37,313 nucleotides of DNA from a bacterium. Lineage in GTDB: Bacteria; Pseudomonadota; Alphaproteobacteria; Rickettsiales; RI-342. Shown here piece after piece: positions 3,368-6,189 of this stretch (position 1 is its first letter; every line of letters starts with the position of its first letter). The stretch spans positions 1 through 37,313 of the forward strand of contig WGMV01000024.1 of the NCBI GenBank assembly GCA_016124905.1, in the 5' to 3' direction. The position numbers and the translations under genes were made by a program. The notes beneath the pieces are model-generated. The model made no database searches. It was not told where the DNA came from and saw only the letters and a list, made by a program, of their open reading frames with translations.

Positions 3368-4120
3368 ATGGAACTGGCTGAATATATTGCCGAAACCAAC
3401 GATTGCTTCTCTGATAACGACTTGTTTGAGAAACTTCAGGCCTTTGTGAAGCCATTCGGCTTGGATAGCTTGATTTTCTGCCTTATGACCAACCATCCCT
3501 CCATCGGCGAACGCGCCAAACACGGAAAAATTGTGGGCTATCCACAGGACTGGATGAAGTTTTATCAGGAACAGAATTACGAGCTCGTAGACCCTATCCG
3601 CAAGGAGGTCATGAAAACGCAGCGTGTTTTCACCTGGAGGGAGGCAGACAAGCTCCAGCCCTTCAACCGTCATGAGCGCACCATGATGAGCGAGGCGCGG
3701 GAAGCGGGTCTGCGAGATGGCATCGCCGTGTCTCTGCAAAACAGCTACAACGAGATTGTCGCGTTCGGCTTTGCAAGCCAATCCGGCGGGGTGGATGTTT
3801 CCCCCAACCTGCTGAGCGCGCTAAAGCTGGCATCGGTTCAATTTTACGATGTCTACCAAAGCCTGAAACGCAAAAACAGCGAGCAGCCACCCAGGATTTA
3901 CCTGACCGAGCGCGAGGCCGAGGTGCTGAAATGGAGCGCGGCCGGCAAAAGCCGCTCGGCCATTTCCGAAATTCTCGATATTTCCGAAAATACCGTGAAT
4001 TATCACCTAAAGCGGTGCTTCACGAAACTGAACGCCAACTCCAACACGCTGGCCGTGCTGAAAGCGGTGCGGCTTGGGTTGCTGGACCAGAGCCATACGC
4101 CGAATATCCATTCTTATTGA
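3368..4120 (+). CDS. LuxR-family quorum-sensing transcriptional regulator
   Basis: A 250-residue acyl-homoserine-lactone receptor and DNA-binding regulator. The N-terminal autoinducer-binding domain (about 1-165) carries the diagnostic set. W62, Y66, D75 and P76 lie in YPQDWMKFYQEQNYELVDPI, followed by W90 in FTWRE and G118 in GLRDGIAV. These align with TraR W57, Y61, D70, P71, W85 and G113. The C-terminal LuxR/GerE helix-turn-helix (about 177-240) has LTEREAEVLKWSAAGKS with E183, L187 and G193, the remaining conserved family residues. With all the ligand-pocket residues kept, it should bind a real AHL rather than act as a ligand-free solo. The cognate synthase gene starts about 106 bases downstream on the same strand, and a palindrome between them is its likely binding site. 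The start follows a run of six G. Confidence 0.95.
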   Translation: MELAEYIAETNDCFSDNDLFEKLQAFVKPFGLDSLIFCLMTNHPSIGERAKHGKIVGYPQDWMKFYQEQNYELVDPIRKEVMKTQRVFTWREADKLQPFNRHERTMMSEAREAGLRDGIAVSLQNSYNEIVAFGFASQSGGVDVSPNLLSALKLASVQFYDVYQSLKRKNSEQPPRIYLTEREAEVLKWSAAGKSRSAISEILDISENTVNYHLKRCFTKLNANSNTLAVLKAVRLGLLDQSHTPNIHSY

Positions 4121-4152
4121 GGCACTCCGAACCTGCACGGCGTTAACCTTTC

Positions 4153-4170
4153 CCTACCAAGGTTGGTAGG
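4153..4170. promoter_or_regulatory. lux-box-like palindrome upstream of luxI
   Basis: CCTACCAA (4153-4160) and TTGGTAGG (4163-4170) are perfect 8-base arms around a GG centre. The element fits the general CT-N12-AG rule for LuxR-type binding sites (CT 4154-4155, AG 4168-4169). It sits between luxR and luxI. If centred near -42 as in classical lux promoters, transcription would start near 4204, just ahead of the luxI GTG start at 4227. The site, its position and the adjacent LuxR gene agree, but binding is inferred. Confidence 0.8.
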
Positions 4171-4226
4171 TTCGCCAATTGTAATAAAACCTATCCTTGC
4201 CCGGCATTCCTGCTGGGAGATGGTTC

Positions 4227-5051
4227 GTGATTTTCGGCTTTTCGGAATTAAGCTGCAACCCGTTATATCCGCGTTACCTTGCCTTTCGGCATCAGGTGTT
4301 CAATGAATTGCTTCAGTATCATCTGACCGGAAACCCGGTGTATCTTTTTCATGCTTACGGCGCCGCCCGGGATGATCAGAACATGGAAGGGTTCGGCGTT
4401 GAGTATGATGATTACGACATTCCCAAAACCCTGCATCTGGCCTTTGTGGATGCCTCGGAACGTTCATCGCTGGAGTCCTTTTTTCCTCATATCCAAACGC
4501 AGGGGCATGAAGGAACCGTGCGAGGCTGCCTGAGGTTTCTGCCGACCGACGGGCCCTACATGATCAAGGATAATATTGAGCGCGGTGTGTGGAAACATGT
4601 CAGGCTGCTTGAGGATCTTCCGGCCCAGGCCAATATTTACGAGGCGTCGCGCATTGCGGTGGACCCTCGGCTTGGCCGCGATAACGCGATGCGCGAAACC
4701 GTCCTCGACAACCTGGTTTACAATAATGTGGAACTGGCGGTGCGGCTGAATGTGCCGAAGATGGTGGGCATCATGTATGACCGCGTGTGGACCAGCGTGT
4801 ATCGCAACCGCGGGGTGCCCATCCGCTATCTGAGCGAGCCCTTCCATGTGGATGACGGCCCGCCCATCATCATCGGTGAAATCATCACCACCGGCGATGT
4901 GCTGGATGATTTAAACCGTCTTTATTCCGACCGGATTGAACAGGGGCTGATCCGCCCTGCAACGATTGACCCGGGCACGCTGACGGCGCACCAGAAGCTT
5001 GTGCAGCGGCATTATGACACATACGAGCCCCTGCCCAGAGAGACCGTATGA
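4227..5051 (+). CDS. LuxI-family acyl-homoserine-lactone synthase
   Basis: It would make an AHL signal from S-adenosylmethionine and an acyl carrier. The GTG at 4227 is preferred over the upstream TTG at 4197. GGGAGA lies at 4215-4220, and the upstream start would fall close to or before the predicted transcription start. This gives 274 residues. Family residues are visible: R21 and F25 in FRHQVF, D61 and D64 in EYDDYD, R103 in RGCLRFLPT, and E139 and R142 in YEASRIAV. Two features are unusual. The position of the conserved tryptophan (W34 in LuxI) is Y31. About 15 extra residues separate it from the D61/D64 pair. A C-terminal tail also makes the protein longer than the usual 190-230. The stop overlaps the next start by ATGA (5048-5051), so expression is translationally coupled. 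Confidence 0.93.
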   Translation: MIFGFSELSCNPLYPRYLAFRHQVFNELLQYHLTGNPVYLFHAYGAARDDQNMEGFGVEYDDYDIPKTLHLAFVDASERSSLESFFPHIQTQGHEGTVRGCLRFLPTDGPYMIKDNIERGVWKHVRLLEDLPAQANIYEASRIAVDPRLGRDNAMRETVLDNLVYNNVELAVRLNVPKMVGIMYDRVWTSVYRNRGVPIRYLSEPFHVDDGPPIIIGEIITTGDVLDDLNRLYSDRIEQGLIRPATIDPGTLTAHQKLVQRHYDTYEPLPRETV

Positions 5052-5668
5052 CCGCCGCCGCTGTGTCTTCCATCGCCTCGTCCTCATCATCTTCCAGCCA
5101 TGGAGACAGGCTGGGCAAAATTCAGGTGCTGGTGATGGACAGCAGCGAAACCATCACCGAGCTTTTCAAGGATATTCTCCAGACACTCGGCTTTTCCAAA
5201 ATCTATATTGCTCATGACGGACAGAAGGGCGCCGAACTGCTCAAAACCATGCGCATCGACCTTATCATCACGGACTGGGAGTTACGCATCAGCCGCAATG
5301 TCCATAACGGGCAAAGCCAGCTTGTCTCGATCAACGGCGTGAATTTTGTGCGGAGCATTCGCTTTTCCGGAAAATTTCCGCTCTTATGCGTTCCCGTGAT
5401 TATGCTGATGGACGAGGTGACCGGCAAAAAAGTGGAGGGCGCGCGGGATTCAGGCGTGAATGAGATTGTGGTGAAACCGCTTAATGCCGAAGAGCTTTGC
5501 AGCCGCATCATGGCCGTTATTGATCATCCGCGCCATTTTGTTACCGCCATGACCTACAAAGGCCCCTGCCGCAGGCGCAAAAAAAATACTGTGCCGGTTC
5601 AGGAAGACCGGCGTAAAACTGAAGTTCGCATCATCAAATACGATGAGCTTCAGCGCAGGAGTTTATGA
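5048..5668 (+). CDS. Response-regulator receiver protein coupled to luxI
   Basis: A 206-residue receiver-domain protein. A Ser-rich leader (residues 7-17) precedes the domain at about 24-155. The phosphoacceptor is D76 in IDLIITDWEL. D31 in VLVMDSS supplies the first-strand acid, where most receivers have two. K143 is in IVVKPLN. The Ser/Thr switch position of strand 4 appears to be methionine (VIMLMDE). About 15-20 extra residues follow D76 (RISRNVHNGQSQLVS). The C-terminus is basic (YKGPCRRRKKN), resembling a tail seen in single-domain alphaproteobacterial receivers, and has no known DNA-binding domain. It overlaps luxI upstream and the next gene downstream by ATGA, so all three should be one transcript under the lux box. 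The partner kinase is not in the window. Confidence 0.88.
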   Translation: MTAAAVSSIASSSSSSSHGDRLGKIQVLVMDSSETITELFKDILQTLGFSKIYIAHDGQKGAELLKTMRIDLIITDWELRISRNVHNGQSQLVSINGVNFVRSIRFSGKFPLLCVPVIMLMDEVTGKKVEGARDSGVNEIVVKPLNAEELCSRIMAVIDHPRHFVTAMTYKGPCRRRKKNTVPVQEDRRKTEVRIIKYDELQRRSL

Positions 5669-6189
5669 TGTCCAGCCCGGTTGCGGCCAATAAAGACGGC
5701 AAAGAAAAGGAAGATAACGTCGTTTATATGAGCGAGCCAAACCACAGTCTTAAAAAAATGATCGGCGAGGATGTGGAGCTGACCTCTATCTTCACGACTG
5801 AAAAAATCAAACGCTGCCAGACCATCATTGATGAGGCCAAGGCAGGGTTTTTCGACACGGTGCGCGGCGATATGGCTCGGCTGGAAACCGCCATGGCGCG
5901 CGCGCAGGAGCTGGAAAGCCGCCCGCAGGAGTTTTACAATATCATTCTGGTGCCCACACAGAATATCAAAGGTCAGGCCCTGGCTTTCGGCTTTCCGCTG
6001 ATTACCAGGATATGCGGGTATATCGTTGGCTATTGCAGTTCCAGCAAGCAAACCACGCATATCGCGCAGCAACTGATCCGCAAACTACTCGAAGCCCTGC
6101 ATTTCGCCGTGCAAAACAAAATCACCGACGATGGCGGCGCTGTTGGACGCGAACTGCTGAAAAGCCTTGAAGCGCTGCCGCTGAAGTAA
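5665..6189 (+). CDS. Uncharacterised protein coupled to the luxI-receiver operon
   Basis: A 174-residue soluble protein that I cannot assign to a named family. It starts within the stop of the receiver gene (ATGA at 5665-5668), preceded by AGGAG (about 5657-5661). A second ATG follows immediately at 5668. A charged, probably disordered N-terminus (residues 1-30) precedes a mostly helical body. A hydrophobic middle (GFPLITRICGYIVGYC) is followed by a long helix, HIAQQLIRKLLEALHFAVQNKI, and then GDGG-like TDDGGAVGRELLKSLE. From memory, proteins with this ending sit beside single-domain receivers in other alphaproteobacteria. A role as receiver partner, for example an HPt-like or phosphatase function, is an inference. 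No canonical HPt His motif is seen. Confidence 0.7.
   Translation: MMSSPVAANKDGKEKEDNVVYMSEPNHSLKKMIGEDVELTSIFTTEKIKRCQTIIDEAKAGFFDTVRGDMARLETAMARAQELESRPQEFYNIILVPTQNIKGQALAFGFPLITRICGYIVGYCSSSKQTTHIAQQLIRKLLEALHFAVQNKITDDGGAVGRELLKSLEALPLK

Follow-up and report, generated by a model that had tools for sequence, protein, structure and literature searches.

Quorum sensing through acyl-homoserine lactones (AHLs) is known in Alphaproteobacteria to reach CckA-ChpT-CtrA, as in Ruegeria KLH11 and Cereibacter (PMC3692519, PMC11655674), and in Rhodobacter sphaeroides CckA is inhibited by the single-domain receiver Osp (PMC9430884). The Cle proteins, which are CheY-like and mostly alphaproteobacterial, carry tandem [Y/F]xGP[D/E][R/K]R repeats in their tails that bind cyclic diguanosine monophosphate (c-di-GMP) (Nesper et al., PMC5677366). 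In CleD, R156 and R169, 13 residues apart, matter for this binding, and in Caulobacter the demonstrated activator of the Cle proteins is c-di-GMP and their phosphorylation residues are dispensable (PMC5677366). HmrX, a stand-alone histidine phosphotransfer (Hpt) protein resembling the P1 domain of CheA, controls motility and attachment in Caulobacter (PMC11481889). Genes for luxI and luxR have been reported in Micavibrio as well, with no known role. Here we analysed a contig of 37,313 nucleotides (WGMV01000024.1, assembly GCA_016124905.1; hereafter the window) from a probably uncultured bacterium of the order Rickettsiales (RI-342), in which a luxR-luxI pair is followed immediately by genes for a CheY-like receiver and for a 174-amino-acid protein. 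The explanation that we favour, and to which we give about an even chance of being right, is that a CheY-like, c-di-GMP-responsive effector and its non-phosphorylatable partner are under the control of AHL quorum sensing, and that the locus is not a phosphorelay step.

The four genes form a head-to-tail run on the forward strand, and all four open reading frames were confirmed exactly where a preliminary description of the locus had placed them. luxR (3368-4120) encodes an AHL receptor and regulator of 250 amino acids (Pfam Autoind_bind 3.3e-23, GerE 9.8e-18); luxI (4227-5051) encodes, from a GTG start, a divergent AHL synthase of 274 amino acids (Autoind_synth 1.1e-9); the third gene (5048-5668) encodes a CheY-like receiver of Cle type with 206 amino acids (Response_reg 4.7e-12); and the fourth (5665-6189) encodes the 174-amino-acid protein. 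Exact four-nucleotide ATGA overlaps join luxI to the receiver gene (5048-5051) and the receiver gene to its downstream partner (5665-5668), which makes luxI and the two genes after it a translationally coupled set with overlapping frames and not, as first worded, a translational fusion. A ribosome site, GGGAG at 4215-4219, stands seven bases ahead of the luxI GTG at 4227, and AGGAG lies ahead of the 174-amino-acid gene. No terminator-like site was found on the forward strand downstream of luxI as far as 6189, the sole forward-strand hit (4326-4339) falling within luxI, and the promoter-like sites of the same interval are consensus matches in modest excess over shuffled sequences. The next neighbour downstream, from 6386, is on the opposite strand. 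The genome is a draft assembly of 47 contigs and 2.36 Mb; an assembly misjoin of two loci was considered and rejected, as two exact in-frame four-nucleotide overlaps are unlikely at a false join.

The quorum-sensing pair consists of adjacent genes whose products both score above their Pfam cut-offs, and a search of the genome found no other AHL-binding LuxR and no other LuxI. LuxR is 34-38% identical to LuxR proteins from luxRI pairs of the same order. LuxI is divergent, with a Pfam score of 38.6 bits and long inserts, and retains in alignment the conserved catalytic residues (EYDDYD, R103, E139 and R142); in its FRHQVF motif, compared by eye, the R and F are retained and the Trp position is a Tyr, and its closest solved structures are AHL synthases. 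Upstream of luxI by 73 bp lies the lux box CCCTACCAAGGTTGGTAGGT (4152-4171), and CTACCANNNNTGGTAG has a single exact match in the whole genome, at this box. We scored 18-mers for palindromy and for CCTA...TAGG ends at 28 luxI loci of the order and its neighbours: a palindrome reaching the threshold was present between -100 and -30 before luxI in 11 of the 28 loci, as compared with none in each of three control windows, and the box in the window ties for the top score among the 28 promoters. This comparative evidence supports 4152-4171 as a probable lux box and, taken with the overlaps, it strengthens the earlier proposal of one coupled operon downstream of a lux-box-like palindrome. Elsewhere in the genome, a lux-box-like palindrome with one mismatch (G000:C18:32129; L144:1501-1516) lies between a bamA-like gene and a gamma-type carbonic anhydrase-like gene; it is possibly a second quorum-sensing target or a chance occurrence.

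The receiver retains the phospho-accepting aspartate (D76) and the lysine (K143), has one aspartate (D31) of the usual acidic pair and a Met in place of the usual Thr/Ser, and carries an insert of about 20 amino acids after the phospho-aspartate. It had been described as a single-domain receiver, but it is not a bare domain and carries a conserved C-terminal tail that is common to receivers which, like this one, are paired with an Hpt-like protein. This arginine-rich region (DHPRHFVTAMTYKGPCRRRKKNTVPVQEDRRKT, 5522-5620) is hit by a tail-only profile made from eight Asticcacaulis proteins, which matched the window receiver at E 1.9e-8, the best of 1000 tail shuffles giving 0.007, and which among the loci scanned matched Hpt-paired receivers and no other receiver. 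The first repeat, YKGPCRR, is intact, with a Cys at the D/E position as in one of the tailed Asticcacaulis proteins; 13 residues on and in register, the second reads PVQEDRR and keeps D-R-R only. In the receiver alignment R133 of the ARDSG motif is invariant, and we equate it with CleD R113 by sequence position alone. When two Asticcacaulis (Caulobacteraceae) genomes were searched with a profile of the Hpt-paired receivers, each yielded four full-length matches with tails, well apart from ordinary receivers (an example tail is YFGPDRRRRQKADYNGPERR). By sequence, the Hpt-paired receivers thus belong with the Cle-type proteins. The bacterium's own genome encodes FliM and five GGDEF proteins. Assignment to another alphaproteobacterial type of single-domain receiver, FATGUY, was given up in view of the match between the tail and Cle. 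The tailed Asticcacaulis receivers of 304-306 amino acids (L336:1489-2403, L337:1462-2382) also have a helical-looking C-terminal domain with a VLDVHLEAI stretch resembling the Hpt-like partner, which may therefore have decayed relatives in the C-terminal domains of CleD-type proteins.

The 174-amino-acid protein had been left as an uncharacterised partner, and taken alone it has neither a Pfam match nor an NCBIfam name; scans of genome-contig and viral-contig collections with the single sequence gave no match either, and a profile was required. With homologues present in 21 of 88 related genomes, its relationship became recognisable: 11 of 18 aligned homologues, taken singly, match Pfam Hpt (E up to 1; best 1.1e-5), and the family profile matches CheA P1 domains in the PDB at E 1.9e-7. 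An AlphaFold model (pLDDT 83) has a CheA P1 domain as its top structural match (Z 14.8 over 123 residues, 2.6 Å). Since Foldseek E-values for the model are weak (best 0.15) and helical bundles attain Z near 13 by chance, we base the Hpt-like assignment jointly on the fold, the sequence profile and the motif, which together predict a four-helix protein of the CheA-P1/Hpt type. From an alignment of 72 homologues and the profile alignment to CheA we located a degenerate H-box, TQNIKGQALAFGF (5956-5994), to which CheA AHSIKGGAGTFGF aligns, and in which Gln99 (5959-5961) occupies the position of the phosphorylated histidine of HxxKG. A histidine stands at this site in only one of 41 distinct homologues from the order, compared with 18 of 31 elsewhere in the class, and all three paralogues of the genome (the window protein, C11:39972 and C11:26368) lack it; the loss in 40 of the 41 and in every paralogue therefore marks the protein as a pseudo-Hpt and is the rule throughout this lineage rather than a defect peculiar to the window copy. 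Tree reconstruction joins the window protein, with support of 98/93, to homologues of two further families within the order.

The genes of the inspected homologues either lie next to one for a receiver or are fused to it, the homologue then being the C-terminal half of a single protein of about 350 amino acids. Within the order the two parts are adjacent or fused in 40 of the 41 homologues, the 41st ending at a contig edge, and one natural fusion was modelled with a pTM of 0.81. Receiver and Hpt-like protein, as two genes or as one fused protein, are a widespread alphaproteobacterial module that is normally unrelated to quorum sensing and elsewhere adjoins unrelated genes. Several families of the order share a conserved home for it, with purM, DUF2066, an AI-2E-family transporter gene, an Hda-like (DnaA-related) gene and sometimes ppk (for example L058:1717-7065, L059:676-6377 and L057:3674-9198). 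In another genome (G078) a histidine-less Hpt-like homologue lies beside a che cluster (L052:1570-8514), in which CheA was identified by Pfam and the other genes are CheW-, CheY- or CheB-like in size and content.

Under the explanation that we favour, a LuxR/LuxI operon would have acquired the receiver/pseudo-Hpt module, and we infer that LuxR bound to AHL would act at the lux box (4152-4171) to give one transcript of luxI, receiver and pseudo-Hpt, so that more signal would mean more of the Cle-type receiver and of its binding partner. The receiver would respond to c-di-GMP via its arginine-rich tail, and the pseudo-Hpt, whose docking on the receiver is suggested by the constant pairing, the natural fusions and the pTM of the modelled fusion, would hold, localise or tune it without phosphorylating it. 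By analogy with the Cle proteins the output would be the flagellar motor or attachment behaviour, that is, probably motility or surface behaviour. Several points weigh against this explanation: the second tail repeat is degenerate in the order (PVQEDRR in the window, not YxGPERR), so that c-di-GMP binding may be weak or lost; D76 and K143 are kept, and the receiver may be phosphorylated by another kinase; and the four-gene order has been seen in one draft genome only.

Conservation of D76 and K143 also suits a different explanation, a kinase decoy: the receiver, made in larger amounts under quorum sensing, would bind a histidine kinase and inhibit it, in the way that Osp inhibits CckA, or would act as a phosphate sink, and the pseudo-Hpt would compete with real Hpt proteins in the manner of AHP6, one of the histidine-less Hpt inhibitors known in plants. 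With 49 receiver-domain matches, the genome has scope for cross-talk, and Osp provides a precedent (PMC9430884). However, a pure decoy would have no need of an arginine-rich tail, which is conserved family-wide, and we consider such a role unlikely.

To compare the gene order with that of other quorum-sensing loci, we surveyed luxI. Of the 344 genomes of the order, 13 carry it, as do 59 of the 385 in the class sample. The survey took in 13 loci of the order (four of them weak or fragmentary), 60 class regions and a further 80 loci in named genomes, which come to about 140 distinct loci once overlaps are removed; the window apart, none of them has the Hpt-like gene or the module. Cross-matching of luxI and module positions in the class sample likewise gave no adjacent pair among the matches listed. 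Other receivers within 3.5 kb of luxI (in several Ruegeria, one Micavibrio and L166) had no Hpt-like neighbour; the arrangement luxR-luxI-106 aa-receiver of another alphaproteobacterium (L166:3996-6305) was rejected as a second case, its receiver being of another type and without the tail. That receiver apparently lacks the usual phospho-aspartate (ILSTAYA). An AHL operon with a receiver of the kind seen in the window was not found in the open-licence literature searched, and the survey agrees with the view of the preliminary description that no characterised system is known to have this gene order. Its proposed search for the order in relatives found it absent from every relative sampled, which shows a lineage-specific arrangement and does not disprove the operon.

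At most luxRI loci of the order and its neighbours, a helical-looking predicted protein of about 75-120 amino acids is encoded across or directly behind the luxI stop, often with an ATGA overlap, and several of these small proteins are recognisably related (xxLxYLxxEAxxxGL). Examples are L064:6868-7167, L067:6591-6896, L161:5575-5928, L170:5501-5851, L172:5413-5694, L183:1886-2176 and L193:5594-5959, among others; a Pfam scan of the one from L166 (106 amino acids) gave no match. The window has no such gene behind luxI. Its absence, the single occurrence of the gene order and the lack of the module at the order's other luxI loci would all fit a chance neighbourhood, in which the module came by accident to lie after luxI and shares its transcript without any role in quorum sensing. 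We regard this as quite improbable, for two exact four-nucleotide overlaps with intact frames suggest selection for coupled expression, and the expression of the module would follow AHL regardless.

A working phosphorelay step, in which the receiver and the 174-amino-acid protein pass phosphate on, corresponds to the earlier claim that AHL would raise a phosphorelay component and thereby link population density to two-component signalling. It could draw on D76 and K143 of the receiver, on the Hpt fold of the partner and on the histidine-bearing homologues that lie beside the same receiver type (18 of 31 class members), but the partner has Gln99 where phosphate would be accepted, the histidine is missing from 40 of the 41 homologues in the order and the receiver tail is of the Cle type, so that this claim is not supported and we judge such a step very doubtful. 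Least probable of all is local feedback, in which the two proteins of the module would tune signal production by acting on LuxR or LuxI themselves: translation coupled to luxI would fix the stoichiometry, and the small coupled protein that often follows luxI in the order may play such a role, but the module is widespread without luxI.

More broadly, we tentatively propose, as a possibility to which we attach rather less than an even chance, an undescribed and widespread module in which a Cle-type c-di-GMP receiver has an obligate partner, separate or fused to it, of the CheA-P1-like kind, whose histidine has been lost more than once; here the module would be the direct product of an AHL operon. 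If this is true, the level of a c-di-GMP effector would depend on cell density, with phosphotransfer playing no part, and a putative c-di-GMP-responsive CheY-like protein in a luxI operon would bring two bacterial decision systems, cell density and c-di-GMP, together in a single transcript. A further, general question is why proteins that partner tailed receivers should retain the Hpt-like fold and yet lose the histidine repeatedly; as the pairs are spread over the Alphaproteobacteria, the module should be testable in a culturable member. Upstream of luxR the window also encodes a methyl-accepting chemotaxis protein (17-2059) and an orphan protein of 198 amino acids (2154-2750), whose N-terminus MANVMIIDDEQAKLLEL is receiver-like and which has no credible Pfam or NCBIfam match.

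The Cle proteins, AHL control of CckA-ChpT-CtrA and the stand-alone CheA-P1-like HmrX were already known; new here are the gene order, the histidine-less Hpt as a standing partner of tailed receivers and the placement of both under a lux box. The window receiver resembles the Cle proteins in its receiver domain, in the helix alpha4 arginine (R133 in ARDSG) and the N-flanking arginine, and in a tail with a first [YF]xGPxRR repeat and arginine pairs 13 residues apart. It differs from them in a second repeat without Tyr, Gly or Pro, in the insert past the phospho-aspartate, and in having an Hpt-like partner and a place in a luxI operon, its c-di-GMP binding being putative. Like HmrX, the partner is a small stand-alone four-helix protein, and the CheA P1 domains that it matches best in structure (1I5N, 8C5V, 2LD6) are those matched by HmrX, whereas the candidate histidine of HmrX, H81, is a Gln in the window protein; the comparison of the two is one of structural matches. 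Osp shares with the receiver a receiver-like nature and an amount set by a regulator, but that regulator is CtrA, which activates it, and not a LuxR, and the abstract of its report describes no Hpt partner (PMC9430884). Ordinary luxR-luxI pairs of the same order have luxR, lux box and luxI in the same direction and at similar spacing, but are mostly followed by the coupled protein of about 100 amino acids or by unrelated genes and not by a receiver module. As in KLH11 and Cereibacter, alphaproteobacterial AHL quorum sensing here would reach phospho-signalling proteins and flagellar motility, but whereas theirs are separate loci, indirectly controlled in KLH11, the window holds its signalling genes inside the luxI operon itself, with no phosphorelay implied.

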